Positions 6,001 to 43,118 are shown, counted from the stretch's first letter. The stretch is 43,889 nt of DNA from a virus (IMGVR_UViG_3300050019_000215:1-43889); one strand, 5' to 3'. The notes: generated from the letters alone by a model not told the origin. Made by a program: numbers and translations.

Positions 6001-7267
6001 AGACGCTCTTGGAATTCGTCATTTTACAAGAAGTTCAAAATTAGACGTTTCACGCTACAAGACAACACGGCATGGAACGCATAGACATGTGCTTACGGTC
6101 GTAAATATGGATAGACACAAGGCCGCCGATCTATTCTGGTCCAGTAAAAAGAAAGAAGAAGCTGGTAAGTCGGTCTCCATAGCGACCGCTTTGACTGCTC
6201 AGTGGGACGCTTCAGGAGCATACCTTGATGGAGTTGAATCTATCGAGATGCGCGAAAGCGTTCCAATGATCGACATTGAGGTAGACAATGAAAACCACAG
6301 GTTTTGCGTAAGTGGTTTACTAGTAAGTAATAGCCGGCCCAACGCCCAGCAGATCCCGCGCGAGTCGCTTGTAAAACAGATGTACACCTCAAGGTTTGGA
6401 AATGAAGGGTGCCTCTACCAGAACGATCTTTCGCAGATTGAGCTCCGTCTTATCGCATGCGCGTGTGGAGACCCGTCGATGGTCGATGCGTTCTGCAGAG
6501 GCGTTGACTTGCACTCTCTCACGGCCAACAAGGTATTCAAAACCAAGTACGAGGAGTTCGAGAAGACCTACATGGAGTGGCTACAGAAGAATGGCCGCGA
6601 GAAGGAAGCAAAGGAGCTCGACAGAAAACGTAAGGTGGCAAAGATAGTAAACTTTCTAACGGGCTACGGCGGTGGACCTTTGGGCCTTCAAACATCTCTA
6701 GCGCAAGGAAATGTATATCTCACACAAGAAGAGTGCGAAGAGATTATCGAGACATTCTTCGATGCGTATCCAGCACTTCGACGCCACATTGGACTATACA
6801 AGGACTTCATCCTTAAACATGGCGTGGCGGTATCCATATTTGGACGTGTCCGCGTCTTTGAGGAGGTCTTTGGTGATGATCGTGAGGCTAAGGCAAAAGC
6901 ACTGCGTTCCGGATACAATCATTTGATCCAATCGACAGCGTCTGACATGATGCTCATCTGTATCACTATCATCGAGAAACTTATGCGCGACGCGAATTTG
7001 GAATCCATGTTGGTGTCCACAGTTCACGATTCACTCTTGATCGATGCAAAGAGGCACGAACTTCCACAGATCCACTCGATTTGCGACCAGATTTTGAACA
7101 ATATGCCTGAAGTGTTGAAACTCTTCTTCGGTGAAAGTTATGACACTTCCTGGCTGATCGTTCCGATAACTGCTGACGCGGAGGTTGGACCGAACTACCT
7201 TGATCAAAGGAAGGTTTCTGGTTCAAATCCAGACTGGGACGCATTGCTCAATGCGAAGACTCACTGA
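3071..7267 (+). CDS. Family A DNA polymerase with N-terminal UDG family-4-like domain and one intein
   Basis: Replicative DNA polymerase precursor of 1398 residues, about 1002 after splicing. Residues 36-230 resemble family 4 uracil-DNA glycosylases: C40-x2-C43, C118 and C135 are spaced like their 4Fe-4S ligands. The usual GEAPG-type motif is degenerate, so glycosylase activity is doubtful. The 3'-5' exonuclease has ExoI D281/E283 (HDTETTGL), ExoII N348/D352 and ExoIII Y445/D449. Polymerase motif A is DLSQIELRL (D1119), motif B has K1191, F1195 and Y1199, and motif C is VHDS (H1319, D1320). Phe at the O-helix position matches E. coli Pol I F762. No 5' nuclease domain is present. UDG-polymerase fusions are known in SPO1-type phages. 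A short gene follows at once. Confidence 0.95.
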   Translation: MIKEKKIKKKTVPKFERDLLEYVNRTPGQLLVPGNQSPLCAKCGLDKCGAYNPYLQPSAPEQPPLLTIIVDSVSKGEDQANELGIHGTSGLLRKLVADIAVEIKLDVSRVRLVPLTMCASRAAKKINYKTKGNWCRWHAVQDLVENPPGMVMAIGTTVLGALSHKSNAQDWSGRLLTWRGWPDDWIVNSKFENGHYLFGDRPTKDDRIPLYALQAPRIVYSTQNPRVIKKWRDQLRAGLELAVKGVEPLDYNRPWWRISCDADDIEATLNTIPDGALVQHDTETTGLEPYRKGAKIVFHMFRWKDKDGSVKSIGFPWDYPESPIISAIARLTPVVLQTLYRTFREGHNYSFDNLQCHGTMGGDLNKLCDSMGGDTLHMLYTARQDTGSRGLEIIAYDWAPTLAGYEEEMVMLIDQYPERLDPASGTGGHYALCPADKWDTHLKPYVMGDVEVVGEASPAIRTKLVGARTYQIPLAHNAMRDKFRWFGPPKRDWIYDNIMLPSQRTLTAMMGRGMFIDQNELAVLEDVVPKATLAAKEKLKSSNPKIIQWVEQMEATEKDWSFDLESKDQLKTILYDIMNLPVVRLTKAGRQTLGDMTKEDMAKRDKNELLEFASTDKFTLNSLAVIHEDVRPLLEYRKQFKTYTTYVRSMRNHFNPLVDKTHRKTSPYLMDDSCVHPTFNQVGTRSGRLSSCLPLDVIVATDRGLIRFGDIKVGDLIQSDTGAHPVKTVWDLTTKVELQIATGTGKKLRCSPDHEIFTSKGKIRAGNLVVGDNIWYNPAPAHFPTEYVRLDPVTVTGKPRTPFTTPDVLDESVAFVLGHFSAEGFISHFKSRPSVNSGKGGNQHTRYKGKINYSNKYAGIDRFPLRASTCVGDTEIELGNFVKSEWARLFGVVPKERKLPGTISYCVTSMGVSQWFINLKIDGLSHARRVPPAIFKSPETVIRAYLRGLFEGDGCAINGISLVTYSGGMAEDVSLLLDALGIRHFTRSSKLDVSRYKTTRHGTHRHVLTVVNMDRHKAADLFWSSKKKEEAGKSVSIATALTAQWDASGAYLDGVESIEMRESVPMIDIEVDNENHRFCVSGLLVSNSRPNAQQIPRESLVKQMYTSRFGNEGCLYQNDLSQIELRLIACACGDPSMVDAFCRGVDLHSLTANKVFKTKYEEFEKTYMEWLQKNGREKEAKELDRKRKVAKIVNFLTGYGGGPLGLQTSLAQGNVYLTQEECEEIIETFFDAYPALRRHIGLYKDFILKHGVAVSIFGRVRVFEEVFGDDREAKAKALRSGYNHLIQSTASDMMLICITIIEKLMRDANLESMLVSTVHDSLLIDAKRHELPQIHSICDQILNNMPEVLKLFFGESYDTSWLIVPITADAEVGPNYLDQRKVSGSNPDWDALLNAKTH
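5144..6331 (+). other. Polymerase intein with LAGLIDADG endonuclease
   Basis: In-frame intein of 396 residues between TRSGRLSS and SRPNAQQIPR, at the conserved GRLSS site of family A polymerases. It begins CLPLDVIVAT and has block B SPDH. Endonuclease motifs are LGHFSAEGFI and LRGLFEGDGC, both keeping the acidic residue. The C terminus is LLVSN followed by Ser: the usual penultimate His is Ser, a rarer but known variation. Removing the insert restores an uninterrupted polymerase motif. Confidence 0.93.
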
Positions 7268-10880: not shown

Positions 10881-11228
10881 ATGCCGTCAATTGTCAAACA
10901 GCTTCTAGGTGAATCACGTCCCACAAATGCCGGCGAACTCGCCAGCAAGATCGCAAACATTCCCGGTTTTGAGAAGGTCGACATCTGGACGCAGTCGGAT
11001 GGCTACGCAATCTTGATCCGATCGAAGGAAGGACAGGACACTGGTCAGGCGTATGAGGTGCAGATCCGTCCGGCAGCGTACGGAAAGCACCCGAGCATGC
11101 AGACGAACTACGGCACGGGAAGAGGGATGGTTCCAAAACGATTCGCCCATGCCCACAAGGACAGAGCGCACAAAGCAGCTGTTGCGGCTGGACGCGCAGC
11201 TCCAGAGCCAGAAGCTCCCGCTGCTTAA
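10881..11228 (+). CDS. Hypothetical protein, 115 aa
   Basis: Starts MPSIVKQLLGESRPTNAGEL. A compact alpha/beta body (VDIWTQSDGYAILIRSKEG) is followed by a basic segment (HAHKDRAHKAAVAAGR) and an Ala/Pro/Glu tail. No known domain. TAGATA lies 4 nt before the ATG and TTGACG 16 nt before that, so a leaderless or nearly leaderless transcript is possible. It converges with the glycosyltransferase gene and overlaps it by 4 nt. Confidence 0.75.
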   Translation: MPSIVKQLLGESRPTNAGELASKIANIPGFEKVDIWTQSDGYAILIRSKEGQDTGQAYEVQIRPAAYGKHPSMQTNYGTGRGMVPKRFAHAHKDRAHKAAVAAGRAAPEPEAPAA

Positions 11229-12502
11229 ATCTCGATCAAGCCGTGTAGTCGAGGACCGTCTTTTATGGCTGCTAGATGCATCTTTGTGTACAAGATGTTG
11301 TGTGTCTTGTGCCAGTCTGATGGATAGTAGTTGAGGATCCTTGTCAGCTGGAACCTGCAGTTTACTCCTAGGTGCTTGATGTACTTTTGTGTCTCTAACT
11401 TTGTGTAGTACCACGCGCTGTTACTGTTCCAAAAACTGACATGGCTTGGATCTTGAAATGCTCCTCTTCCATCCGTAGATGGAACGTCGATCAAAAACAA
11501 TCCTCCATGCGTCAAGACGCGGTACGCTTCATTCATCACATGGATATGGTCTTTGATGTGCTCGATAAAATCTTGAGACCTCAGGGCTCCGACTGAGTTG
11601 TCATCAAATGGCCACTTGATGCTGAGGTCGGCAATAATGTTGGCGGAGTGTTTATCGACAGAAGTCCAACCCGCTGGAGAGTTGATTCCTCCGCCGAGAT
11701 CATATGCTCCAAGACTGTTTCCTCTGGAATAGACGAGAGCCAGGTGCTCGACATATCGGTCGTAGATCTCAAGATTCAACTTGTCGATCTTGTCTTGATT
11801 TTTTCTCCACGTGTTGTCGGTGTGGACACGATATTTGTAAAGTGCCTTGTGGACATACTCAAACTTTCCATGAAGATAAAGTCGACACATGAGGTCGAGA
11901 TCGTCACATACCTCTAAAGATTCGCTATGACCTCCTGCACGGTTATAGATGTCTCTCCTCCATGATCTGACATGGTTTGGTGCGTGATAAACGTTGGCGA
12001 TATTTTGAGGAAGAAGCTCAGGACAAACTGGAACTTGGCACTGTTCAGCTCCTCCTGGGCCGTTGAATGTCGCCGGTGTGTATTTCCAACCATACGACGA
12101 TCCGAAAACATACGGAAGACCTTGGCTGTTAACTGATACACAGTCTGAAAAAACGAACACTGGCTTCCTCGGACCCTCAAACGCAGTTCGAAGTTCGACC
12201 AGACAGTCAACGCTGAGCTCGTCGTCGTGGTCGAACTCAACGATGTAAGTTCCGTTGGCGCACATGCAGGCGCACTTCTTAAGTGAACCAATGTTTCCAG
12301 TAGACCCGAATTTTATGACTCTGAGACGCTGGTCTCCTCCCAAGAGTGTCTTCACTTGGTCCGGATTTTCAACGATCGGACCGTTTATCAGCACGATCCA
12401 CTCCCAGTCTTGCTCGATCTGACCGAAAACCGACTTTGCTGCTTTAGTAAGCCAATCCAGGTTGTTTGATGGAGTGATAATGGAGAACGTCGGATGGGAC
12501 AT
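11225..12502 (-). CDS. Family 2 glycosyltransferase fused to a SAM methyltransferase
   Basis: A 425-residue bifunctional enzyme. Residues 1-255 are a GT-A glycosyltransferase 2 domain: TFSIITPSNN start and the metal/nucleotide-sugar motif FDHDDE at 90-95. Residues 262-425 form a class I methyltransferase: SAM loop YDLGGG at 267-272, acidic VDKH at 282-285, and a later GGLFLIDVP strand. It would transfer a sugar and possibly methylate the product. The target may be a virion glycan or a host surface glycan; the sequence does not say. Two more glycosyltransferases lie at 30.9-32.1 kb. It is followed by no same-strand gene and precedes a convergent one. Confidence 0.88.
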   Translation of the reverse strand: MSHPTFSIITPSNNLDWLTKAAKSVFGQIEQDWEWIVLINGPIVENPDQVKTLLGGDQRLRVIKFGSTGNIGSLKKCACMCANGTYIVEFDHDDELSVDCLVELRTAFEGPRKPVFVFSDCVSVNSQGLPYVFGSSYGWKYTPATFNGPGGAEQCQVPVCPELLPQNIANVYHAPNHVRSWRRDIYNRAGGHSESLEVCDDLDLMCRLYLHGKFEYVHKALYKYRVHTDNTWRKNQDKIDKLNLEIYDRYVEHLALVYSRGNSLGAYDLGGGINSPAGWTSVDKHSANIIADLSIKWPFDDNSVGALRSQDFIEHIKDHIHVMNEAYRVLTHGGLFLIDVPSTDGRGAFQDPSHVSFWNSNSAWYYTKLETQKYIKHLGVNCRFQLTRILNYYPSDWHKTHNILYTKMHLAAIKDGPRLHGLIEI

Positions 12503-25112: not shown

Positions 25113-25424
25113 TTAAGACACCGGTAGCCTAGACCTATTCGGGATCCTAAGCTGGGTTCCTACTGGAACTCCTATCAGGACATCAACTAGGTTATTAACC
25201 TGCGCAATCGCCCACCACAGCGTTGGAGTTCCGTAAAACAACGTCGAGATCTTGTCGAGACGGTTTTCCAGAGGAAGTGTCACCGTGTAGATTTCATCTC
25301 CAATAGCGGGAAGGACAACCGGCTGCTGAAGTCCGAAGACAATCACTCCGTTGACGTCGTACACCGGCGTCTTACTGAACATCGACAGCGGTGGAAGCTG
25401 GACTTTCTTCGAAGAAACGGACAT
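25113..25424 (-). CDS. Baseplate wedge gp53-like/LysM-type tail protein
   Basis: A 103-residue protein. The C-terminal part reads LFYGTPTLWWAIAQVNN, then LIGVPVGTQLRIPN. The pattern of Y-G-x-x-x-x-W-W-x-I-A-x-x-N-N, a short linker and G-x-x-L-x-I-P is typical of T4 gp53-like baseplate proteins and LysM-like tail proteins. It would help assemble the baseplate around the tail hub. Late box TACTTA is 4 nt before the ATG. The gene is divergent from the terminase. Confidence 0.78.
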   Translation of the reverse strand: MSVSSKKVQLPPLSMFSKTPVYDVNGVIVFGLQQPVVLPAIGDEIYTVTLPLENRLDKISTLFYGTPTLWWAIAQVNNLVDVLIGVPVGTQLRIPNRSRLPVS

Positions 25425-25428
25425 GCGC

Positions 25429-25434
25429 TAAGTA
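25429..25434 (-). promoter_or_regulatory. Late-type -10 box, TACTTA
   Basis: TACTTA, 4 nt (GCGC), then ATG of the gp53-like gene. Confidence 0.6.
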
Positions 25435-25471
25435 CCGACTCCGGCTCAAAACCTATTCTTTGCGGTCACTG

Positions 25472-28400
25472 GTGTCAAAACAAAAGCCAAAATCGCACAA
25501 AAAACTAAGTCGGATCGAAAAAGCCATCGATGAAGTCCTACAAGGGGAGCAGGCCGATCCGCTTCTCAAGCTCCTAAGCAAAGAGGATCAGGCAATGCTT
25601 CAGGACGCACTGCGCGAATTGCGCAAAGATCCTAGCATGGCGAGCGCTTACATGTCTGATCTCTGGAGGTTAGATTACACAAAGCGACCGCCATCGATGC
25701 AAGATTTCTTGGAGGACCCGTACTGGCTCGGTGGCATCATGAATAAGTCTGAGGAGTCTGAGGGTATGTTTCCCAAGTGGAAAGAGCTCCTTATACACGA
25801 CTTTGACATCGATTCTAGAATACATAACTTAGTGGTAACAGGCAGCTTGGGCACAGGCAAATGCCTAGCGCTGGGGACTCCGATTAGAATGGCCGACGGT
25901 TCTGTTAAGGAAGTCCAGGACGTCAGCGTTGGAGACCGGATAATGGGAGATGATGGGACAGCTAGGACCGTCGAGAGTCTAGCGCGCGGAAAAGAGCAGA
26001 TGTTCGACATCGTGCCATTTCGGCCAAAATGCGGTCTTGTATGGGGGTGCAACGCATCACACCTGCTTACACTCAAGCATCCAAAAACGCATGCCTTGGT
26101 AGAAGTTAAGGCGCTAGACGTTTGGAATAATCCTAAAAAGTATTCAACCTATCGCCTCGTTAGAACGGGTTTTGACCTGCCTGACGTACCCGTTCCAATC
26201 GACCCATATTGGTTAGGTTTGTGGATAGGAGACGGCGCGTGTCAGTGTGCCGGCCTTGTTGTAGCCGATATAGACGTTGATATTTTAGCCTATCATACCG
26301 ACTTTTGCTCAAAGTTTGACGGGATGAAGATGAGCGTCTCGAAAGAGGACACTAGAGGAAATGCTTGCCGAGTCTACCGACCTGTGTTTCCAACGCTTAA
26401 ACTGCGCGAAAATCCTATCATCTGCGAGCTTAGAAAGCTAGGACTTCCTATCAAGCTAAGAACTGCCGGAGGATTCAAAGCCATACCTAGTGTATACGCT
26501 CACAACAGTATCCGAGTCAGAAAATTGTTGCTTGCCGGAATTATTGATAGTGACGGAGGAATGAGCGATAATTGCTATGACATCGCGCTAGCTGACCGAG
26601 CACTCGTTCTCCAGATAAGAGACATCGCGTGGTCACTCGGAGCCACGTGCAGTTTAACCAAAAAAACAATAGACAACGCTAAATTCAAGAAGCCTGCCAC
26701 CGCATGGAGATTGTGCATCAGTGGGATAGAGCTTCCTACGCTGCTGGAAAGAAAGACCGTCGTTAGGGCAGGAACTATGCGCAGTGGAGGAAACAGGAGG
26801 ACGCCTGGAGTGACAGGGTTCAAGATCGTCGACCGTGGAGAAGGAGACTACTACGGATTCGAGCTATCCGGTCCTAATAGAAGGTTTCTTCTGGCAGACG
26901 GGACAATCACCCACAATACATTTTTAACCGTAACGATCTTGTTATACCGAATCGTGTTGGCCCTTTTGTTGAGAAACGCACAGGCATTTTTTGGTCTCGC
27001 AAAGGGGTCTCAGATATTCTACGCCATCTTGTCTGTCACGCGGTCAGTCGTTCAGGAAACTGCATTTGGTGACGTCCTGAACTTCATGGGTAACTCTCCA
27101 TACTTCATCGAAGAGTGCCACTTCAACCCGAACAAGAAGTATGCCAACTTGCGCATCCCACTTGGCGGAAACATCTTCATGACAGCGGGTTCGCAGGGTT
27201 GGCATATCATCGGTCGTAATGCTATGGGAGTTGCGCTTGACGAAGGTAACTTCCGACTTGAGTCTAACCCCGACATGAAGGCGTACAAACTCTATGACGA
27301 AGTGCGCACTCGTATTCGCAATCGATTTCAAAAGATGGCCGGTTACATGCCAGCCATATCGATCCTGTCGTCGTCTGCGCGAGATGAGTCGTCGTTCACA
27401 GAGAAGGTTGTCAATGACATCGAGAAGTCAGGAGACGATGACCAGAAGGTTTATCGCTTCGCCGTCTACAAGATCAAGGCGCACACCCTCAAGCTTGACA
27501 GACGTTGGTTCAAAGTCTCGTACGGTCTGAAAAACATTGACCCGTACATCCTCGGTGGATGGTATGACAAGGACGGAAATCCTGTCGGAGAAGATCCGCA
27601 CGAGCAAGCTCCTTCAGGTTCAAAAACTGAGTTGGTCCCTGGAAATTATCACGCCGACTTCAAACGTAACGTCAAGACCAATCTCCAAAGCATATCCGGA
27701 ATCTCGACAGGAGGTTCGTTTCGCTTCTTTGGAAATACGATCGACCTCGAGAAAGCAGTTACTCTTGGAACTTCAAACGGTCTGGCAAACCCGTGCACCG
27801 TGGTGTCGATCCCTCTGTCTGAAGAAGATGACCATGAGATCTGGGACTTCCTCGATGCGAAGACGTTCCTCACGAAGAAGCTCAGTCAGATCATGCCAAA
27901 GCGCGACCCTGGAGCTTACCGTTACTGCCATCTCGACTTGGCCACTCGTACACAAGCTGGCATGTCAATCTGCCACATCATCGGAAAACAGAAGGTTGAG
28001 GGATTGATCAACATGGGAGGTGAGGTCTTCGACGAATATCGCGTCGTGGTCGAGTACGACTTCATCTTGTCGATCATCGCGGGAAAACAGAAACCGATCA
28101 GCATCAACAAGGTCATCCATTTCCTGTATTGGTTGCGTGACATTTGCGGATTCAGGTTTGCTGTCGTGACAGCCGATAGTTTTCAATGCTTAAGCGGAGA
28201 TACATTGGTCAACACATCGCGTGGTCTAATCGAGCTTCGAGACGTTGCTGTGGGAGACGTTGTTCAATCAAAACTTGGTCCAAGGCCAGTTGAATGCGTC
28301 GTATCATACCCAAATGCGCCTGTCTTGGAAGTTGAACTAGACGATGGTGAGATCTTGACAGGAACGCCAAATCACAAGATTGAATCATGCAGATATGAAG

Positions 28401-29713
28401 TCGCGCCGTGGTCAGGATGGAAACCTAAGTTCGATTGGGTTCGGCTTGATAAGTTAAACGTGGGAGACGTAGTCAGCACGGTTAATGCTAAGTGCGTTGG
28501 TCCGACCGATTATGTGCCTCTCGATAGATTTGAGCACAGCATAGGAAAACACTGCACTCTTCATGCGCCGAATGTAGGAGAGTTCAATCCTCTTATTCTA
28601 AACGAAACGTTTGCGGAGTGGGTTGGAATTGTGTGGGGAAACGGGTACATCAGTAGGAATCATGTCTCTGTATCTGCGCACAGAGACGAGTTAGAAGATG
28701 TTGTGTCCTGTTTTAAGCGGCAGAAGTTTGACCCTGTCATAAAGCCATGCCACGGTCATTTTAATGTGCGCGTTCAAAGCCACCAACTTGTCCTGTGGCT
28801 TGCTTCGTTTGGACTCGTCAAACCTGGCATAAAGAAAACAGGAGGTTTCACGGGAGAAATCGGCATACCAGATTGCATCTTAAGGTCTCCTAGGTCAGTT
28901 GTAGGCGCATTCATCAGAGGATTATTTTCTGCGGATGGATGTGTCACAGGGCAACAGATAACGTTTGTCACAAAACACTTAAAAATGGCGCGCCAACTTC
29001 AAACTCTTCTTAGGACATATTTTGGGATACCGACACACATCTGTAAGAGGACAGTGAGGTCTGCGTTTGGGCGGACGTATGACCCTCCGTGCGTAAACTA
29101 TATCATGTCAGTTCGTGGAGAGAGAAGCAAGTTCGTAGAAATTGGTTTTTGTTACGCGAAAAAACAGCGCAAGCTGCAATCCATTGCGCATATCAAAGGT
29201 CGTCGTCTATACTCAAAAATAAAGTCGATTAAAGAAGTATCAGCGCGCGACGTGTTTGACATACGAGTTAAGGATGACCCATCGTATACCGCCAACGGAA
29301 TCGTCAGTCACAACTCGGCCCTTCCGCTCCAGATGTTGGAGAAGCAAAGATTCAAGGTTGCAAATCTGTCCGTAGACAAGACGAAGAAACCGTATGAAGC
29401 TTGGCGCGCTGGTTTTGAAGAGGCACGTATCAGGATGTTTGCTCAGTCGATCTTGATGAACGAAGCTGAGAATTTGGTTGACACTGGTGACAAGGTCGAC
29501 CATGATGACAATCACACGAAGGACGTTTGCGACGGCGCGTGCGGCGCGTACTTCTCAGCGGTCACGTTCAAGGATGACAACACCATGAGATCTCCTCACG
29601 GCAACATGCCGGGTGTTTACTCAAACGTTGACCTGAACTCTGAAGAATCTCCTCCAGTCACTGTCGTGGATCTTGAGAAGCACCGAAAACCATCAAGGTC
29701 TTTCGACGCGTGA
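25472..29713 (+). CDS. Terminase large subunit (TerL) with two inteins
   Basis: ATPase and nuclease that packages DNA into the prohead. 1413 residues from the GTG chosen here; about 685 after removal of two inteins (352 and 376 aa). The ATPase has a P-loop GSLGTGK joined to TFLTV after splicing, and Walker B GVALDEGNF. The nuclease domain has YCHLDLA, VTADSFQ and a late acidic cluster DGACGAYF after VDHDDNHTKDV. The start is uncertain: no in-frame ATG occurs until well inside the protein, and the frame is open to 25391. The gene is on the plus strand while nearby virion genes are on the minus strand. Its stop overlaps the convergent zinc-ribbon gene by 21 nt. Confidence 0.93.
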   Translation: MSKQKPKSHKKLSRIEKAIDEVLQGEQADPLLKLLSKEDQAMLQDALRELRKDPSMASAYMSDLWRLDYTKRPPSMQDFLEDPYWLGGIMNKSEESEGMFPKWKELLIHDFDIDSRIHNLVVTGSLGTGKCLALGTPIRMADGSVKEVQDVSVGDRIMGDDGTARTVESLARGKEQMFDIVPFRPKCGLVWGCNASHLLTLKHPKTHALVEVKALDVWNNPKKYSTYRLVRTGFDLPDVPVPIDPYWLGLWIGDGACQCAGLVVADIDVDILAYHTDFCSKFDGMKMSVSKEDTRGNACRVYRPVFPTLKLRENPIICELRKLGLPIKLRTAGGFKAIPSVYAHNSIRVRKLLLAGIIDSDGGMSDNCYDIALADRALVLQIRDIAWSLGATCSLTKKTIDNAKFKKPATAWRLCISGIELPTLLERKTVVRAGTMRSGGNRRTPGVTGFKIVDRGEGDYYGFELSGPNRRFLLADGTITHNTFLTVTILLYRIVLALLLRNAQAFFGLAKGSQIFYAILSVTRSVVQETAFGDVLNFMGNSPYFIEECHFNPNKKYANLRIPLGGNIFMTAGSQGWHIIGRNAMGVALDEGNFRLESNPDMKAYKLYDEVRTRIRNRFQKMAGYMPAISILSSSARDESSFTEKVVNDIEKSGDDDQKVYRFAVYKIKAHTLKLDRRWFKVSYGLKNIDPYILGGWYDKDGNPVGEDPHEQAPSGSKTELVPGNYHADFKRNVKTNLQSISGISTGGSFRFFGNTIDLEKAVTLGTSNGLANPCTVVSIPLSEEDDHEIWDFLDAKTFLTKKLSQIMPKRDPGAYRYCHLDLATRTQAGMSICHIIGKQKVEGLINMGGEVFDEYRVVVEYDFILSIIAGKQKPISINKVIHFLYWLRDICGFRFAVVTADSFQCLSGDTLVNTSRGLIELRDVAVGDVVQSKLGPRPVECVVSYPNAPVLEVELDDGEILTGTPNHKIESCRYEVAPWSGWKPKFDWVRLDKLNVGDVVSTVNAKCVGPTDYVPLDRFEHSIGKHCTLHAPNVGEFNPLILNETFAEWVGIVWGNGYISRNHVSVSAHRDELEDVVSCFKRQKFDPVIKPCHGHFNVRVQSHQLVLWLASFGLVKPGIKKTGGFTGEIGIPDCILRSPRSVVGAFIRGLFSADGCVTGQQITFVTKHLKMARQLQTLLRTYFGIPTHICKRTVRSAFGRTYDPPCVNYIMSVRGERSKFVEIGFCYAKKQRKLQSIAHIKGRRLYSKIKSIKEVSARDVFDIRVKDDPSYTANGIVSHNSALPLQMLEKQRFKVANLSVDKTKKPYEAWRAGFEEARIRMFAQSILMNEAENLVDTGDKVDHDDNHTKDVCDGACGAYFSAVTFKDDNTMRSPHGNMPGVYSNVDLNSEESPPVTVVDLEKHRKPSRSFDA
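25862..26917 (+). other. TerL intein 1 (P-loop site), LAGLIDADG type
   Basis: 352 residues inserted directly after the P-loop Lys (GSLGTGK). Starts CLALGTPIRM, block B NASHLLTL, endonuclease motifs LGLWIGDGAC and LLAGIIDSDGG both with intact acidic residues, ends TITHN followed by Thr. The extein reads GTGK-TFLTV once spliced. Packaging ATPase activity needs splicing. Confidence 0.94.
28187..29314 (+). other. TerL intein 2 (nuclease-domain site), LAGLIDADG type with Asn in motif 1
   Basis: 376 residues between VTADSFQ and SALPLQMLE, a conserved TerL motif. Starts CLSGDTLVNT, block B TPNH, ends IVSHN followed by Ser. Endonuclease motif 1 is VGIVWGNGYI, with Asn where the catalytic Asp is expected; motif 2, IRGLFSADGC, is intact. 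Homing activity may be reduced or lost, while splicing residues are complete. Confidence 0.93.
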
Positions 29714-30147: not shown

Positions 30148-30532
30148 TGGCGTCCCTGACCTGTTGGTAAAGATGACGGCTTTCCCACTCTGCATCCCTT
30201 GGTCTTCCATCGGCAAGTTGGAACTTAACGTCCCAGTTGTAGCCGTTGTGGAAGTCCGTTTGCCAGATCCAGTTTGCTTCAACGTCGTGATCGGTACCCG
30301 AAGCTGGGCGTTTCGACATGCAGTGGAGGCTTGGCGTGATGTGAAGTGTTTCACCGTCTTCTACGTATTCCCACGCGGCGCCGTTATGGGTTGTCGGCTT
30401 AGATGACCCTCTGGGGTACACAGGAATGACCTCGGTCAATACTGTTCCCCTCGACGTACGACAGAGCACAATGAGTCTCTGAGGGCTCAAGGTCTTGTCC
30501 AGAACCGCCGTTCCTATGACCTCGTCACTCAT
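30128..30532 (-). CDS. Hypothetical protein, 134 aa
   Basis: Starts MSDEVIGTAVLDKTLSPQ; soluble, mixed alpha/beta with Trp-rich WIWQTDFHNGYNWDVKF. Overlaps the upstream gene by 8 nt. No motif recognised. Position in the minus-strand array of small genes suggests early or middle expression. Confidence 0.7.
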   Translation of the reverse strand: MSDEVIGTAVLDKTLSPQRLIVLCRTSRGTVLTEVIPVYPRGSSKPTTHNGAAWEYVEDGETLHITPSLHCMSKRPASGTDHDVEANWIWQTDFHNGYNWDVKFQLADGRPRDAEWESRHLYQQVRDANESIQR

Positions 30533-30938
30533 CTTCTCCCTTTATCCCAGAAGCCCTGAGCTTAGTGTAATAGCGAGGATCCTCTGCCAGGTGATCTCGG
30601 GCGATGGTCTCCGCAACGTGGGTGTCGTCGGTGTGCTCCATCTCGACCTTGATCCCGGCTGAGAGCTCGTCTGGATCTGGATCCTCTGACTCTTCGACGG
30701 AGCCTTTGACCTCGATCCGGGTGCTTCCGTCTCCGTCAAAACTCCATGTGACGTCGCGCTCGTCTTGACTGGACGGCTCGACAATGGCAATCTCTCTCGA
30801 GCTTCCAGCGTTGCAGATCTTCGCGATCTTTTCCATGAAAGTCCTGAAACCGCCGGCACCTTCTCCGCTGATCGTGATCGTGACGGAGTCGACCTCTTTC
30901 TCGACCTCTCCAAGGATACGTTTGACTGTTGAGCTCAT
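30525..30938 (-). CDS. Hypothetical acidic protein, 137 aa
   Basis: Starts MSSTVKRILGEVEKEVDS. An acidic protein with a Ser/Glu/Asp-rich middle (GSVEESEDPDPDELSAG) and HTDDTHVAETIARDHLAED. TAAATA lies 4 nt before the ATG with AGGA between, so a start-proximal promoter, a ribosome site or both may apply. Function unknown. Confidence 0.7.
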   Translation of the reverse strand: MSSTVKRILGEVEKEVDSVTITISGEGAGGFRTFMEKIAKICNAGSSREIAIVEPSSQDERDVTWSFDGDGSTRIEVKGSVEESEDPDPDELSAGIKVEMEHTDDTHVAETIARDHLAEDPRYYTKLRASGIKGEDE

Positions 30939-30941
30939 GTC

Positions 30942-31526
30942 CTATTTACGGTCGTGTTTTCCCCATGAGTAAAGGCGGTGACTCCAATGGGACGAGTACG
31001 CATTCTTTCCTGGGCTTATGTCGTGAAAGAACGTATATGGAAGGACCTTGACCTTGTGGGTCTTTTCCAACAGAATCCCGATTGGACCTCCCCTGAGACC
31101 GGCGCACGTTCGCACAAGCTCACCGATGATCTCAGACTCCTTCGTGGCAAACAGGACGTTCGGATCTATCCTCCTTTTAGGACCTCCAAGGTGCGGATGA
31201 AGCTCTCCTGCAATGACCTCAGCGCTGTCATCCATCAAGTCATCGAACGGTCTGATTGGCCTAACGTCAGCGTCAACGTAGACTCCTCCGAATCTGTGAA
31301 GGATGACGAGACGTGCGTAGTCGCTGATCAATGCAGCATCGATCTCCGGGCTTTTATTATCGAGAAGAGCAGTGAGTTTTTCCTGGTTCAGATCTCTCAA
31401 GTCCTGCTCGTTCCACAATCTGTGCTCCCAAAGAGGGTGGAGATGGACCCACATCTGACCGAATGCTCGGCACGAGCTTGGCATCGGTGGACCGATCCAG
31501 ATTCGATGGGTGATGCGTGGGATCAA
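30942..31526 (-). CDS. GT32-like (OCH1-type, DXD) glycosyltransferase
   Basis: 194 residues. MIPRITHRIWIGPP at the start, LWNEQDLRDL, then ISDYARLVILHRFGGVYVDAD with the metal-binding DAD (D85, D87): the classic order of the Gly_transf_sug/OCH1 family. It transfers a hexose from a nucleotide sugar. The TTG start overlaps the previous stop and gives the family-typical N terminus, so I prefer it over the longer frame. It is coupled to the upstream glycosyltransferase; acceptor unknown (virion fibre or host glycan). Confidence 0.85.
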   Translation of the reverse strand: MIPRITHRIWIGPPMPSSCRAFGQMWVHLHPLWEHRLWNEQDLRDLNQEKLTALLDNKSPEIDAALISDYARLVILHRFGGVYVDADVRPIRPFDDLMDDSAEVIAGELHPHLGGPKRRIDPNVLFATKESEIIGELVRTCAGLRGGPIGILLEKTHKVKVLPYTFFHDISPGKNAYSSHWSHRLYSWGKHDRK

Positions 31527-32095
31527 AGGATAACACGGCCGCCAGCAAGCCGTTTTAGAGTCCCGTTGCCGTGGTGAATTACAACGTACTTTTTTGCGTC
31601 TCCAAGTACCCAATGAGAATTTACTCCTGGCATGTTGTATGCGACTAATTTGTTTCTTGCTATAGCTTTAGCAAGCTCTATGTCCTGATATATGCAGAAC
31701 CCGTTGAATTTTCTGTCAGCGAGAAGAACCTCGCAAGCATGCCGCGTGAAGTACTGGAATCCTCCAAGGAACACCATGCCGAGTTGAGCCTGTCTAAAGT
31801 CACCTGCGACATCTGACTTTCTCAGCGGCGCAAGTACGGTTTCATCGTCACTGAACACGCTGTCTGGGTCTGTTTTGATGAGCACGTCTTCGCTTGTTTT
31901 GAGGAACATCTCGAAGATTCGGCGCGTCCAGTTGACGGTGCGTTTGTCCATGTCTTTCACAATCCAGACCTGGTCCTCAGGTATGCCATCAGGAACCGAC
32001 AGCGCAACAACCCTAAGTTCCTTTCCAAAGCGCTTGAACTGAAGTTGAACACCGTCCAGTTCCGCTGGTCTGCTGATTGTAGTCGCGATAATCAT
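31523..32095 (-). CDS. GT-A-like glycosyltransferase, 190 aa
   Basis: Starts MIIATTISRPAELDGVQ. A Rossmann-like first half and IKTDPDSVFSDDE with D76-P-D78 as the DxD-type motif. HHGNG near the C terminus is typical of metal or phosphate contact in such enzymes. Its ATG overlaps the stop of the PKD protein gene (ATGA), and its stop overlaps the GT32-like start. The three genes may act together on the PKD protein. Family assignment is by motif only. Confidence 0.72.
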   Translation of the reverse strand: MIIATTISRPAELDGVQLQFKRFGKELRVVALSVPDGIPEDQVWIVKDMDKRTVNWTRRIFEMFLKTSEDVLIKTDPDSVFSDDETVLAPLRKSDVAGDFRQAQLGMVFLGGFQYFTRHACEVLLADRKFNGFCIYQDIELAKAIARNKLVAYNMPGVNSHWVLGDAKKYVVIHHGNGTLKRLAGGRVIL

Positions 32096-32679
32096 GAGCT
32101 GATGTCCCAGGTCATATTGAGCACAAACTGGGTTCCTGAGTTGATAAACACAAAATCCGCAAATCCACTGTATCCTGACAAGACTGGAATAAAGTTCATG
32201 GCCATCACAGAGTTCGGGTATGAAGTCCCGAGGATGAATGGAAAAACAACGGGGTTTGACGCTCCGTCAAGGAACTCCAAACTTGACACCGCAGATGGGT
32301 TGATAACTGTCACTCCACTTATGGTATTCTGATTTGACCCATCCAGTTGGATGAAAAATGTTTGTGTCCAATGTGAGTAGTACGGAAGGTTTCCCAAGTA
32401 CGGCGTGTCGCCGTTATGGAACGTTCCATAATTGAAGTAACATTTGAGAGGAGAGCTTGGAAGCACAATCACCACATGCTTTACGACGGTTGATGTCCTT
32501 GTTCCACAGGTCGCAGTGAGAGTAACTGAATACGTTCCGCTCCCTGAATAGGTGTGAGATGGTTCCCTTTGTGTTGACGTATTTCCATCTCCAAAATCCC
32601 AGAACCATGTGTTCGAACCGAACACAGTTCGGTTGAAAAAATGGACTGCGGCTCCGTGGATTATGAATTCAAAGGTCAC
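32092..32679 (-). CDS. PKD-domain virion protein 1, 195 aa
   Basis: N-terminal PKD domain: VHFFNRTVF, then WDFGDGNTSTQ, SHTYSGSGTYSVTL and a Cys in TATCG. The C-terminal half is beta-rich (SGVTVINPSAVSSLEFLDGA). PKD domains mediate protein-protein or glycan contacts in surface proteins, so this is probably a fibre or decoration protein. Starts with a GTG, TAGTTT 3 nt upstream. It is a paralogue of the 307-aa protein at 39 kb and heads the operon with two glycosyltransferases. Confidence 0.82.
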   Translation of the reverse strand: MTFEFIIHGAAVHFFNRTVFGSNTWFWDFGDGNTSTQREPSHTYSGSGTYSVTLTATCGTRTSTVVKHVVIVLPSSPLKCYFNYGTFHNGDTPYLGNLPYYSHWTQTFFIQLDGSNQNTISGVTVINPSAVSSLEFLDGASNPVVFPFILGTSYPNSVMAMNFIPVLSGYSGFADFVFINSGTQFVLNMTWDISS

Positions 32680-32702
32680 GTCAAACTACTGTTCTTTTGG
32701 GT

Positions 32703-33056
32703 ATGAACACCCATACGCTTGCCTTTGATAAAACTGCGTGGTCAGGCCAGAGAGGTCTACAGTTGGTCGATGCCATCTCAAATGCAGCCGCAACGTACGG
32801 GATTATCCCAGAATCCGCTGAAGCTGGACACGACTTCTTCATGTATTTGGCCATGTGTCCGTTGGTTTACTTTCCAACAAACGAGGCTGGTTCAGTTGAA
32901 CTAAAACATCTTCAGTTGAGCACCACGATCAAGCTCAGCGGCAAGGTCTTCCTGTGCAACTTCGTGGTCACCCTCAATCCTGAACTTGACAGGACACTGA
33001 TCAACTTCTTCAGCCAAGATGGATTGCGATTCAGTGTGGTTGCGGCAGCAGACTGA
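32703..33056 (+). CDS. Hypothetical protein, 117 aa
   Basis: Starts MNTHTLAFDKTAWSGQRG. Compact alpha/beta protein (SVELKHLQLSTTIKLSGKVF). Its last 145 nt overlap the 3' end of the antiparallel gene 32912-33307; the frame has protein-like composition on both sides. No family recognised. No Shine-Dalgarno sequence is clear. Confidence 0.62.
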   Translation: MNTHTLAFDKTAWSGQRGLQLVDAISNAAATYGIIPESAEAGHDFFMYLAMCPLVYFPTNEAGSVELKHLQLSTTIKLSGKVFLCNFVVTLNPELDRTLINFFSQDGLRFSVVAAAD

Positions 33057-33307
33057 TCAAAGAGTTTGCGGAGAGTTTTCAGAGTCTCTCCTGAAACAAA
33101 AGCCATCTGAACCTTTGTAAAGTCGGGTTCTCCGTCGACGTTGAAGTTGACATGGAAGATGCCGTCCTTCACATCCTTTGAGAAGACAGTCAGCCTCCAC
33201 TTGCCGATCTCTAAAGAGTCGGGACGAACCTCGCGGGACACCAGGGCGGGAAGAGTGATCTCCTCGCGACCTTTACGTAGGACGACTTTGAGTTTGAGCC
33301 CGTACAT
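32912..33307 (-). CDS. Hypothetical protein, 131 aa (antiparallel overlap)
   Basis: Starts MYGLKLKVVLRKGREEIT. The beta-rich first 85 residues look real; the C-terminal 48 residues are coded opposite the 32703-33056 gene and look less protein-like. An upstream in-frame extension overlaps the radical SAM gene. The true C terminus could be affected by a sequencing error. It lies directly downstream of the radical SAM gene. Confidence 0.55.
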   Translation of the reverse strand: MYGLKLKVVLRKGREEITLPALVSREVRPDSLEIGKWRLTVFSKDVKDGIFHVNFNVDGEPDFTKVQMAFVSGETLKTLRKLFDQSAAATTLNRNPSWLKKLISVLSSSGLRVTTKLHRKTLPLSLIVVLN

Positions 33308-33332
33308 GCCCAGAATAAATATGAGCCGTAGA

Positions 33333-34031
33333 TCATCTTCCGTACGGCATCCCACTGTAAGAACAGCTCTGGCATGGTTTGACCCCTAACCTCGACTGCT
33401 CAAGTCTGTTGGCCATCGACTGGTAGGGTCTTGAATTGAAGATGTCTAGTAGGTTGTTTTTTGCAAGATCTCCAAGCACAACTTCCGACTTCATGTCGGA
33501 GCAGCATAGCACGACTTTTCCGCTCGACTTTATTTGCATTCCAGACATCGGTCTACGACACGGAGCGTCCACAGGAGTGTCATCCGTGAAGTAACCTCCG
33601 CGATTCTCGTATACGAACGGTGACCTCTCCACAAAAGTTGGAAACTCCTTAGTCAGCGCGATGAACTTTGCCAAACCATCTGCGTCGTAAACGCTGAAGT
33701 TCAACTTGTTAAGTCCTGAGTTCCTGAAGAGTGCGACGGAAACAGCATTGAGCGTGTCTCCATTCGTGTTGAGTGACAGGTACGCTCCTCGGTACGTCGA
33801 CCTAAAATCGCTGATTGTGTCTAAGAGCGCGGGATCAAGAAGGGGTTCGTTGATCCCGTGGAAGCTGATCCTTCCTCGGAAGTCGCTCGGAAGAGCGATG
33901 AGAAGCTTGTTGATAACGGACCTTGACAGGAACTCTTGCTTGACAGTCTCTTTTCCGTGCAAACAGAAACTGCATGCCCTGTTGCAAGCCGAACCGGTTT
34001 CGATCAGGATGGTTTTGGGGATTAGGACCAC
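33333..34031 (-). CDS. Radical SAM protein with SPASM-like C terminus
   Basis: 232 residues. TGSACNRACSFC holds the CxxxCxxC 4Fe-4S motif (C16, C20, C23). SFHGINEPLLD and LSLNTNGD match later radical SAM motifs. The C terminus has APCRRP (C158), KVVLCCSDM (C176, C177) and KPCQSCSYSG (C220, C223), the SPASM-type auxiliary cluster pattern with the typical GD-L--N-L-DI-NS element. It would use S-adenosylmethionine to modify a peptide or small molecule. SPASM enzymes often mature peptides, but no clear precursor peptide is visible nearby. Starts at a GTG. Such enzymes are uncommon in phages. Confidence 0.87.
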   Translation of the reverse strand: MVLIPKTILIETGSACNRACSFCLHGKETVKQEFLSRSVINKLLIALPSDFRGRISFHGINEPLLDPALLDTISDFRSTYRGAYLSLNTNGDTLNAVSVALFRNSGLNKLNFSVYDADGLAKFIALTKEFPTFVERSPFVYENRGGYFTDDTPVDAPCRRPMSGMQIKSSGKVVLCCSDMKSEVVLGDLAKNNLLDIFNSRPYQSMANRLEQSRLGVKPCQSCSYSGMPYGR

Positions 34032-37794: not shown

Positions 37795-38991
37795 CTAGTT
37801 GACCAGGACTCTAGACCACGATTTTCTAAATCTGACAGTCAATGTCTGGGATGACGTTTTCACAAATGGAGTGTTGAAGACAAGTGTGAACTGCCTGTAC
37901 GAATTTCCGAACGATACCGCGTAGAGAGTCGTATTCGCGTTTGAAATACTCCACACAACGGCAACGTCCCTATAATGGCTTCCAGTTCCGTAAGAGTCAG
38001 CCTTTGTTGAACTTTGAGAAAAAAATGATCCAGTGTAAAAATACGTTCCGTTAAATGTGTTAAACGGCTGAAGCGTAATCGCGTTACCATAAACTATTCC
38101 AATTCCAACGTTGTTTCCTGGATCGAGTGTTCCGTTATATCCTTGAGGATTTCCATTGCTGTCGAATGTCTCAAGACCATTATCGCTTAATCCGGTTGAT
38201 TCAAGTTGGACTGTTCCGCTTGAGTCGTACCCAGTTCCAACGTTAGAAGCGGCCACTGGAGTCAGTCCTGAAATTGTTTGAATAACTTGAAGAGTGACTC
38301 TTGCTTGATCTCCTGTCAAAAACGCTACCGGTGGATTGACAATGTCAAGGTCATATAACTGAGTTCCTCCGTAATAGTACGGATTAAAACCGATCTCTGT
38401 GATAGATGTTCCGGACGAAAACGCGGACGAATTTTGAACATTTTGATGCGTGATGGTCACGATGTCTCCTGCAACCGATGCAGTACTATAGTTTTTGTCA
38501 GCTCCAGCTTCTGGAGCCCAGCGCAGAGTGCTAATGTAGCTGGTCAGAGACGACACGTTGACATACCAGATTGTTCCAATAGTGGGTGTGGAAACCGTTG
38601 CAGACGCGGACACTGTGCATTGAGTTCCGCTGTTGTACGTCAAGTAGAGCTCTGCTCCTGTCGATCCGGTTCCCCATTTGAAAAGTCTTCCAGTGTCATC
38701 AGCAACGAAAAATGTTGAGCTGGCGGTCAGAGTTGTTCCTGACTGAGTGAATGTGATTGCCCCGGAGTCTCTTCTAACCGGCGATGGTGATACTCCGTTT
38801 CCTAGTCTTGGAACGTTCAGCGCGTTGAGCCATCCTATTGCCTGCACTGTTATGTCATCTAATCCAAAATCCGTCAACATGTTGTCTCTAAACTCTGTGC
38901 CACAAATGATTTCGCCGTTCCTGACGACTTCGAGTTTGTATCTCACCTGGTTGGAGATACTGACGTGAGCATTGACGGATTCTTCGGTCAT
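37795..38991 (-). CDS. Virion/tail protein, 398 aa
   Basis: A large beta-rich protein starting MTEESVNAHVSISNQVRY. Tandem Ser/Thr/Gly-rich strands (SGTTLTASSTFFVADDTG; GTQCTVSASATVSTPTIG), no enzyme motifs and aromatic-rich C terminus. These are typical of phage tail-associated structural proteins. It overlaps the upstream PKD gene (ATGA) so the two are likely one unit, perhaps fibre and attachment protein. Family not recognised. Confidence 0.78.
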   Translation of the reverse strand: MTEESVNAHVSISNQVRYKLEVVRNGEIICGTEFRDNMLTDFGLDDITVQAIGWLNALNVPRLGNGVSPSPVRRDSGAITFTQSGTTLTASSTFFVADDTGRLFKWGTGSTGAELYLTYNSGTQCTVSASATVSTPTIGTIWYVNVSSLTSYISTLRWAPEAGADKNYSTASVAGDIVTITHQNVQNSSAFSSGTSITEIGFNPYYYGGTQLYDLDIVNPPVAFLTGDQARVTLQVIQTISGLTPVAASNVGTGYDSSGTVQLESTGLSDNGLETFDSNGNPQGYNGTLDPGNNVGIGIVYGNAITLQPFNTFNGTYFYTGSFFSQSSTKADSYGTGSHYRDVAVVWSISNANTTLYAVSFGNSYRQFTLVFNTPFVKTSSQTLTVRFRKSWSRVLVN

Positions 38992-39911
38992 AGAAGTGAT
39001 GTGCTAACTATGCTGTAAGAAGATCTGACCATCGCTACTTTTGTGCCTGTGTCTTTGAGCACGATCTTAAGCTCAGAACTTGGGATTGAATAAGATGAAG
39101 GAATTGTCCCAGATGAAATTGTTCCCGTTGTGATCAGAACGGTTCTGAGCACAGTGCTTGGAATAAAATACGACTGGCTGATTTGCGCCGGATAAGTTCC
39201 AGAGGCCACAATAACGTCCCTTAAAGTGGTGGAAGGTATCGAGTATGACGAGTCAACTTGAGACCCAAACGTTCCAGCATTGGTGACAATAGACCTCAAC
39301 ACCGATGATGCGACGCTATACGACGACCTGACTCTAGGTCTCATCGTGATGTCCGAGATGATCCACGTGCACGGCACCAAAAACGTTCCCAATGAATTCA
39401 CGATTTGAACCGTTCCAGACCGACCGGTCGTAAGCACGGATGATTCGATCCTGATTCTGATGACGCTTCCTGCTGGACTCGTGTAAAAAGGAAGATCAGT
39501 CAAGACCCCGTTGTTGTATGTCTCCAGTAGGGTCATCCCGCTTGGAACCGACACGGATTCCAGCAAGTTAAGACCTCCAACAGTCGCGATGTGGAGATCT
39601 ATGTCCGCCAGAGATTTCCTGAAGAACTCTCCAAGGAATAGCGGCTGGCTAGACGCGTATTGGATGCCGTTGTATCTCAACTGAATATCCACGATCGTCG
39701 CGGAAAGGATTAGGCTCCTCGTGGCGGTCGAGATTGTACCGCCGCAGTCCGCGATCAGCGTAACCACGTAGTGCCCGAAGAAAGCGTAGTTGTGTGTAGG
39801 AGATCTCTCCGTCGATGTCTCTCCGTCGCCAAAGTCCCAGTGCCAGGAATCCGCCCGAAAGACGGTCCTGTTGAAGAAGTGCACGGTTAACCCGGTGATC
39901 GAGATGTCCAC
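38988..39911 (-). CDS. PKD-domain virion protein 2 with C-terminal tandem repeats, 307 aa
   Basis: N-terminal PKD domain: VHFFNRTVF, SWHWDFGDGETS, YVVTLIADCGG, closely like the 32.1 kb paralogue. The C terminus, residues about 195-307, has five copies of a roughly 25-residue unit, SSYSIPSTTLRDVIVASGT-like, likely a repeated beta or coil stalk that can vary in number. Starts at a GTG with TAGTTT 3 nt upstream, as in the paralogue. Probably a fibre or decoration protein. Confidence 0.82.
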   Translation of the reverse strand: MDISITGLTVHFFNRTVFRADSWHWDFGDGETSTERSPTHNYAFFGHYVVTLIADCGGTISTATRSLILSATIVDIQLRYNGIQYASSQPLFLGEFFRKSLADIDLHIATVGGLNLLESVSVPSGMTLLETYNNGVLTDLPFYTSPAGSVIRIRIESSVLTTGRSGTVQIVNSLGTFLVPCTWIISDITMRPRVRSSYSVASSVLRSIVTNAGTFGSQVDSSYSIPSTTLRDVIVASGTYPAQISQSYFIPSTVLRTVLITTGTISSGTIPSSYSIPSSELKIVLKDTGTKVAMVRSSYSIVSTSLL

Positions 39912-41769: not shown

Positions 41770-42096
41770 CTAGGCTTCGACGAGGCGAGACCGGCTTCTA
41801 GACGACTTAAGTTCGGTTTTCTGAACAACCCTAGTTTCTTTCGTCATCTTCAATGGCTTCTCTCTGTAATACGTCTTGTGGACGGCGCAATTTCTTGATT
41901 CATCCCAAACGGTGAAGTCACGTGCTTCGAGTGCACCGCCATCCTTTGTGGCGTCTTTTAGGATTGCGGCAGTAGTCTTTTCGCTGATGCCGCTCTCCTC
42001 ACACGCTTCGGCCATCGTGAACCACCCATCCGTACGGCTTGGTGGAGCGAAGCGTTTCCTCTTCAACTTGTTCATCAGGTCAGTTACTTTGCTCAT
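41770..42096 (-). CDS. Winged-HTH-like regulator candidate, 108 aa
   Basis: Starts MSKVTDLMNKLKRKRFAP. The central segment WFTMAEACEESGISEKTTAA looks like a helix-turn-helix with a following wing (ARDFTVWDESRNCAVHKTY). The tail is very basic (KSSRSRSRL). It likely binds DNA. The ATG overlaps the stop of the metallophosphoesterase gene (4 nt), so it is translationally coupled to it. A longer frame exists upstream but lies inside that gene. Confidence 0.72.
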   Translation of the reverse strand: MSKVTDLMNKLKRKRFAPPSRTDGWFTMAEACEESGISEKTTAAILKDATKDGGALEARDFTVWDESRNCAVHKTYYREKPLKMTKETRVVQKTELKSSRSRSRLVEA

Positions 42097-43118
42097 GACA
42101 GGAAAATTGGACAGGTTACCGTGCGGCCGTGCTCTTTCTCCATGAGGAAGAAAGTCTGAGAGGGTGGTTCGAACGGGGCTTTGACAGCCACGCTGAAGTC
42201 GGAATAACCGATGAGAGACCCGTTTAGGACGAACTTCGGGTTCTCCATGCGCATGTGGAGATGACCGAACACATCGAGATCGGCACGCATCTGCTTGTCC
42301 CAACCGGCGATAGCCTTCAGGATTGGGATGGTTGGACCGCCGATGCCGCCGTCGTATTTGATGTTGTCGCCGTGATGGAACCGCACCTTGAAGCCGTAGA
42401 TGTCAAGAAAATTATGATAGCCGTTCGCGATCTTGTATTCGAACCGTTCGTCGGGAACGTGCATCGCGAGAACGTGGTACATCAACCATTCAAAGCTGTT
42501 GAGATGGGATGTCTTGATCCTCTTCTTCTCAGTGGTTCTTCCGTGGTTTCCTACACAGCATGGGATGATGATACTCTTCAGCTCCGCGTCAGTTGCGATT
42601 AGAGCAAGACCGGCCTGGATTTTTTTGAGCACGAATATCACCGCCTCAGTTGGACTAAGGTTGTTGCTCTCTAGCAGTTCCTGATGGATCTGGCCTGTGA
42701 TGAAGTCACCAAGCAACGGAAGGACCAGCGTCTCAATCCTGGTTGCGTTCCGGTTAAGCCGGATGAGTTCGAGAAGATTCCCGAAGAAGGCATCGATCCG
42801 GCTTCCCGCGATCTCCAGATTGAATTCGTTGCATCCATTGACGCCTTCAGGGTCAACGCTTTCTTCGGTGTGCCAGTCGCTCGCAACGGCAACAGCAGTT
42901 GACTCGGACTCGTCATTGTTATGACGCGCTTTGATTGGTGTCACCTTGTGCTCGGCGTGTTCGTGAAGTAAACACGCGGCATCGAGCGCGGTCTGGTGGC
43001 GTTCAAGCTCCTTCGTGAGTGCGTCAAGCTGAGCTCTGAGCGCGTGCTCTTTTTGATTTGCAGACGTACGTGCGAGCTCTGTCATGAGCCCTGCAACTGT
43101 CTTGTTGGGAGTGGCCAT
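42093..43118 (-). CDS. Calcineurin-like metallophosphoesterase with N-terminal coiled coil
   Basis: 341 residues. Residues 1-55 are a helical, probably coiled-coil, segment. The metal-binding motifs appear in the right order: DWH (D81, H83), GDFITG (D138), GNHGR (N191, H192), HHGDN (H248, H249) and GHLHM (H286, H288). This is the complete set of a calcineurin-like phosphoesterase, of the type that hydrolyses phosphodiesters or phosphomonoesters with two metal ions. The substrate is not shown; related phage enzymes act on DNA ends or nucleotides. Preceded by TAATAC 4 nt before ATG. A 63-nt segment is duplicated at the right edge of the window. Confidence 0.88.
   Translation of the reverse strand: MATPNKTVAGLMTELARTSANQKEHALRAQLDALTKELERHQTALDAACLLHEHAEHKVTPIKARHNNDESESTAVAVASDWHTEESVDPEGVNGCNEFNLEIAGSRIDAFFGNLLELIRLNRNATRIETLVLPLLGDFITGQIHQELLESNNLSPTEAVIFVLKKIQAGLALIATDAELKSIIIPCCVGNHGRTTEKKRIKTSHLNSFEWLMYHVLAMHVPDERFEYKIANGYHNFLDIYGFKVRFHHGDNIKYDGGIGGPTIPILKAIAGWDKQMRADLDVFGHLHMRMENPKFVLNGSLIGYSDFSVAVKAPFEPPSQTFFLMEKEHGRTVTCPIFLS
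42710..42772 (-). repeat. 63-nt inverted duplicate, copy 1 (in metallophosphoesterase gene)
   Basis: Codes for ELIRLNRNATRIETLVLPLL. 61 of 63 nt match 43651-43713 in inverse orientation; both differences are synonymous and both copies read in the same peptide frame. Confidence 0.9.

Follow-up and report, generated by a model that had tools for sequence, protein, structure and literature searches.

A BtrN-like radical SAM gene beside a coupled PKD–glycosyltransferase unit in a phage genome, tentatively read as a glycan-modification locus

BtrN is the 2-deoxy-scyllo-inosamine dehydrogenase of butirosin biosynthesis (PDB 4M7S and 4M7T), a radical S-adenosylmethionine (SAM) enzyme that oxidises an alcohol group of an aminocyclitol to give a ketone and whose four-cysteine auxiliary cluster has been proposed to accept the second electron (PMC9012708). 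A single auxiliary [4Fe-4S] cluster with four cysteine ligands in a truncated SPASM domain is the requirement for this type (PMC9012708). In phages, radical SAM modules have been known from Campylobacter phages since 2010 (PMC2853527), and the host-recognition clusters of pelagimyophages carry glycosyltransferases together with radical SAM cassettes (PMC7029224). Glycosyltransferases of the mycobacteriophages Che8, Corndog and Myrna act on the phages' own structural proteins, according to PMC12363180 (citing Freeman 2023). Here we describe a locus in the 43,889-base IMG/VR virus record IMGVR_UViG_3300050019_000215 (the window, by which we mean this whole stretch). A BtrN-like radical SAM gene (33333–34031, minus strand) lies there upstream of three coupled minus-strand genes: PKD1, encoding a PKD-domain protein (32092–32679), GTx, encoding a putative glycosyltransferase of the GT-A type, from an undescribed family (31523–32095), and a PF04488 glycosyltransferase gene with a DXD sugar-binding region (30942–31526). 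Cassettes of glycosyltransferase and radical SAM genes in phage host-recognition regions are already described; the new element here is the candidate family of GTx with its repeated coupling.

The radical SAM gene is complete, starts with GTG and encodes 232 amino acids. Pfam detects both SPASM (2.1e-11) and Radical_SAM (8.1e-8) above the curated cut-offs. An earlier sequence-only reading called the protein SPASM-type; the ending, however, is a twitch of the BtrN type and not that of a seven-cysteine maturase. Cysteines C16, C20 and C23 form the CxxxCxxC motif of the radical SAM cluster and carry identical residue numbers in BtrN. The auxiliary-cluster cysteines C158, C176, C220 and C223 align with C169, C187, C232 and C235 of BtrN, which gives a one-to-one match of all seven cluster cysteines, and both proteins have CNRxC, TNGD and NRxG motifs at an overall identity of about 30%. 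The CX2CX5CX3C continuation of seven-cysteine SPASM domains is not found in the protein, which ends 9 residues past C223. BtrN was the top solved relative in a single-sequence PDB search (4e-15). A profile built from the window protein and 19 viral relatives retrieved it at 1.3e-59 with the next entry at 4e-11; SkfB and SuiB, maturases of ribosomally synthesized and post-translationally modified peptides (RiPPs), followed at 2.7e-5 and 1.2e-4. The AlphaFold model (predicted local distance difference test, pLDDT, 79.8; predicted template modelling score, pTM, 0.82) was submitted to Foldseek and found BtrN first (E 8.7e-15, TM 0.80/0.76), then SpeY, a twitch dehydrogenase by its PDB title (E 3e-8, TM about 0.5), while SuiB reached about 1e-6. 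Alignment and model together make a solid case for a BtrN-family twitch enzyme with a single predicted auxiliary cluster, and not a RiPP-type SPASM maturase. The grouping is thus BtrN-type rather than with a housekeeping family, the placement that the sequence-only reading had named beforehand as counting against it. An open reading frame (ORF) at 41770–42303 with a marginal match to phrog_12297 (E 0.0027) was considered as a second radical SAM gene and dropped, as it has neither a Pfam match nor a CxxxCxxC motif.

PKD1 (195 amino acids; PKD_4, 6.9e-14) is the first gene of the coupled unit. Its stop codon and the GTx start share the sequence ATGA (32095–32092), and the GTx stop codon and the TTG start of the PF04488 gene share TTGA (31526–31523): the 4-nucleotide overlaps claimed for these three genes are confirmed at both junctions. 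GTx has 190 amino acids and the PF04488 protein 194. The glycosyltransferase label of the latter is secured by Pfam (Gly_transf_sug, 1.1e-11, 45.7 bits versus a cut-off of 23), whereas that of GTx comes from motifs and context, with no database support. The PF04488 protein has its DXD motif in YVDADVRP, and its distant PDB matches are GT-A catalytic domains of toxins and effectors. Directly downstream, after a gap of 3 nucleotides, follows a DUF5661 gene (30525–30938, minus strand; 2.7e-12). PKD1 has a longer paralogue in the window, PKD2 (38988–39911, minus strand; PKD_4, 7e-10), with 32% identity in BLASTP (E 1e-23), which overlaps by 4 nucleotides the next gene (37795–38991; phrog_4176 tail fiber, 3.5e-10). 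Because this paralogue directly precedes a tail-fibre gene, the arrangement suggests that PKD1 is a surface protein; it fits a virion role and is not proof of one. PKD2 ends in a C-terminal run of repeats (SSYSIPSxxLRxVxxxxGT-like), which PKD1 does not have. A third glycosyltransferase gene, encoding a fusion of a GT2 domain and a methyltransferase domain (11225–12502, minus strand, 425 amino acids; Glycos_transf_2, 2.3e-8, and Methyltransf_11, 3e-6), lies between small ORFs and the tail-fibre region and adds a third glycan enzyme to the same phage.

Searches of Pfam, PHROGs, NCBIfam and PDB gave no match for GTx, nor did tblastn in the phage and plasmid collections, a scan of 399 genomes of one phylum (run without a positive control) or the 17 phage records that hold radical SAM relatives. 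A first DNA pattern returned unrelated ORFs; a second one yielded a single homologue (L097:8-574; 36–37% identity, 5e-31) in an otherwise different phage record of 123 kb. The two proteins share the blocks VNWT, KxDPD (KTDPD in GTx, DxD-like), DVAGDFR, GGFQYFTR, QD and HxGN. These resemble the DxD motif and the C-terminal histidine of GT-A enzymes, from which we infer that GTx is a glycosyltransferase; a single-sequence AlphaFold prediction was unusable (pLDDT 35). The homologue is also coupled by 4 nucleotides behind the gene of a surface-like protein, here with a weak HYDIN-type Ig-like match (E 0.0038). Furthermore, the Ig-like/GTx pair has a GT_PLOD gene (1.2e-32) just upstream, and on the downstream side a GT2 gene (3.3e-11) is separated from GTx by one ORF. 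In this second phage (L099:12184-15036 and L097:1845-2588) the GT_PLOD gene, the Ig-like gene, GTx, another ORF and the GT2 gene stand nearly in a row, adjoining DNA replication genes. That a surface-like gene is paired with GTx in two phages offers the strongest hint that GTx may act on the protein encoded just before it. A search for PF04488 in 18 related phage records gave no match and is uninformative, as control genomes gave none either.

Two DNA pattern scans brought the radical SAM family to about twenty members in viruses. Encoded around them are GT8 and GT2-like glycosyltransferases, cytidylyltransferases, a nucleotidyltransferase, NeuB, short-chain dehydrogenases/reductases (SDRs), aminotransferases and further radical SAM genes. 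Bacterial members were found at 79 loci, mainly in SAR11 and other marine Alphaproteobacteria, next to methyltransferases, class III aminotransferases, CTP_transf_3 proteins of the CMP-sugar synthetase type, SDRs, GFO/IDH/MocA oxidoreductases and proteins with SIS and CBS domains. For a rough comparison, a scan of 30 further ORFs in the window returned one Pfam match, to a helix-turn-helix domain. This pattern of neighbours speaks for a predicted role of the family in glycan or sugar-nucleotide chemistry. Two marine phage contigs each carry two radical SAM genes inside a 4-kb stretch with glycosyltransferase-like genes between them (L061:716-1573 and L061:3214-4092; L036:443-1339 and L036:2153-3088).

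Our tentative preference, to which we give somewhat less than an even chance, is a glycan-modification locus made of two neighbouring units, with PKD1 as the preferred acceptor and the radical SAM protein as a sugar or cyclitol dehydrogenase. In the first unit the fibre-like PKD1, GTx and the PF04488 enzyme would be made from one coupled message, and the two enzymes would most likely transfer sugars in sequence, preferably onto the PKD1 protein made just before. In the second, SAM would be cleaved at the C16/C20/C23 cluster and the resulting 5′-deoxyadenosyl radical would remove a hydrogen from an alcohol-bearing carbon; the auxiliary cluster at C158/C176/C220/C223 would then accept the second electron, so that a sugar or cyclitol would be left with a keto group. 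We infer that GTx transfers sugars, that PKD1 is its acceptor, that the radical SAM substrate is sugar-like and that the two units cooperate. The sequence-only reading had proposed that a virion protein may be modified. For the three coupled genes, a modification of virion or surface glycans is still the best reading, whereas the peptide-type chemistry finds no support. A bolder version is doubtful and something of a long shot, namely that GTx is the first member of a new family of phage glycosyltransferases specialised on the preceding Ig-like or PKD surface protein and that the BtrN-like enzyme oxidises the attached sugar or its precursor, giving a keto-sugar virion. Many phage radical SAM genes have no assigned use, and assigning this one to the BtrN type, in a setting of glycan genes, replaces an unspecific SPASM label by a claim that can be tested: oxidation of a sugar or cyclitol rather than modification of a peptide. 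Likewise GTx, twice found directly behind a surface-like gene, may represent a new glycosyltransferase family, one for which an acceptor is predicted.

The stop codon of the radical SAM gene is 0.65 kb from PKD1, 1.2 kb from GTx and 1.8 kb from the PF04488 gene, in good agreement with the 0.7–2 kb given before, and all four genes occupy the same strand and stretch. Several observations nevertheless weigh against the preferred reading. The array is not continuous. The 653 bases between the radical SAM gene and PKD1 have as their best frame by codon usage an ORF of 119 amino acids on the opposite strand (32697–33056, plus strand), with 0.128 bits per codon compared with 0.135–0.177 for the four genes in question; it has no Pfam or PHROG match and no assigned function. 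Because this coding ORF intervenes, the radical SAM gene and the PKD1–GTx–PF04488 unit are probably transcribed separately. Promoter and terminator scans gave signals at or below the shuffle level. A doubtful ORF of 147 amino acids (32912–33355, minus strand), which overlaps the end of the radical SAM gene and runs antisense to the plus-strand ORF, scores 0.031 bits per codon and has no family match in Pfam, PHROGs or NCBIfam. Also, no relative with the gene order of the window was found, the GTx-bearing second phage gave no radical SAM match, and the neighbour counts are raw ones taken without a random-locus control. In the tree the window protein groups with BtrN and phage NRxG proteins on a long branch with weak support (Shimodaira–Hasegawa-like approximate likelihood ratio test, SH-aLRT, 75). 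No sugar-nucleotide synthesis genes are seen in the window, and donor sugars would therefore have to be supplied by the host or by parts of the genome outside the sequence.

A rival idea is that the PKD–glycosyltransferase unit and the radical SAM gene were inserted independently into a hypervariable region and share no pathway, an explanation compatible with either model of the acceptor and so overlapping with both in probability. We regard it as a real possibility, if short of probable: the coding ORF on the opposite strand separates the units, GTx occurs without a radical SAM gene in the second phage and is not found in the 17 phage records mentioned above, but both units lie on the same strand within 3 kb, and the radical SAM relatives stand repeatedly beside glycan genes of other families. 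Also a real possibility, though less likely than not, is a remodelling of the host surface, in which the enzymes would alter the host O-antigen, capsule or a lipid-linked sugar and so block adsorption of competing phages, the PKD neighbour being incidental. Glycosyltransferases of jumbo cyanophages (PMC7824862) and of pelagimyophages (PMC7029224) have been read in this way. CMP-sugar and other nucleotide-sugar genes surround the bacterial BtrN-like relatives and would fit surface glycan islands, and one phage relative (L054) has the gene order GT8-like, radical SAM, cytidylyltransferase, NeuB. The 4-nucleotide coupling of GTx to a surface-like gene in two unrelated phages, however, favours a virion acceptor for that part.

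A peptide natural-product-like system, as also considered in the sequence-only reading, or a radical-based change to side chains of a virion protein is improbable. It could draw on the SPASM match, but the four auxiliary cysteines are the only ones and stand in BtrN positions, the RiPP maturases are far weaker matches, and the relatives lie beside sugar-nucleotide and glycan genes, with no peptidase or transporter family among their commonest neighbour families. A short precursor peptide, which that reading had suggested looking for, did not turn up in the gap: among ORFs of at least 20 amino acids in 32600–33450, no short one has a clear coding score or the expected position. A frame of 54 amino acids over the end of the radical SAM gene (33211–33375, minus strand) was dropped as a precursor on account of its negative coding score. 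Glycosyltransferases of T4-type phages are a precedent for glycosylation of hypermodified phage DNA, but such a role is highly improbable here: the glycosyltransferases are coupled to a PKD surface-like gene, and the scanned ORFs of the window contain no base-hydroxylating or thymidylate-synthase-like family.

By appearance the window belongs to a tailed phage with a baseplate, with matches to terminase, DNA polymerase, tail-fibre and baseplate-wedge proteins. Its terminase relatives are distant (all below 60% identity) and come from Rhodobacter, Vibrio, Agrobacterium and Thermus phages. Positions 20000–43889 gave no DNA-level match in the phage collection. Exact-word scans of viral contigs with the radical SAM protein, GTx, terminase and DNA polymerase, and of genome contigs with the radical SAM protein, returned no close relatives. 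The terminase large subunit gene (25391–29713, plus strand) contains two intein-like insertions at about 25862–26917 and 28187–29314, and the extein between them matches the terminases of Rhodobacter, Thermus and Vibrio phages. The DNA polymerase gene (3071–7267, plus strand; 1398 amino acids) has its best polymerase match towards the C-terminus, while its middle part matches helicase and head-protein PHROGs and may mark an intein.

Among the described systems BtrN itself is the closest to the radical SAM protein, with which it shares the fold over the whole length and the cluster cysteines. The window protein differs by its phage setting and its identity of only about 30%, and no aminocyclitol pathway genes were recognised among the scanned ORFs of the window, which is a fragment. 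SpeY (PDB 7WZV and 7WZX), the second fold match, is similar in sequence within the radical SAM core only. The modules of the Campylobacter phages CP220 and CPt10 (PMC2853527) include one BtrN-like member with about 24% identity to the window protein; one module comprises an amidinotransferase together with five radical SAM genes, and neither PKD nor GTx was seen there. In CPt10 (L005:216-8359) a glycine-amidinotransferase-like gene belongs to the same module as the BtrN-like gene, and a PAP2-type phosphatase and a threonine-phosphate-decarboxylase-like gene lie close by; the set is reminiscent of an aminocyclitol pathway. The account of virion glycosylation in mycobacteriophages makes no mention of a radical SAM partner, and GTx has no counterpart in the phage collection. 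The glycosyltransferases of the pelagimyophage clusters are mostly of the GT8 family, whereas the window has PF04488 and GTx; what these clusters have in common with the window is a phage fibre region in which glycosyltransferases and radical SAM genes occur together.

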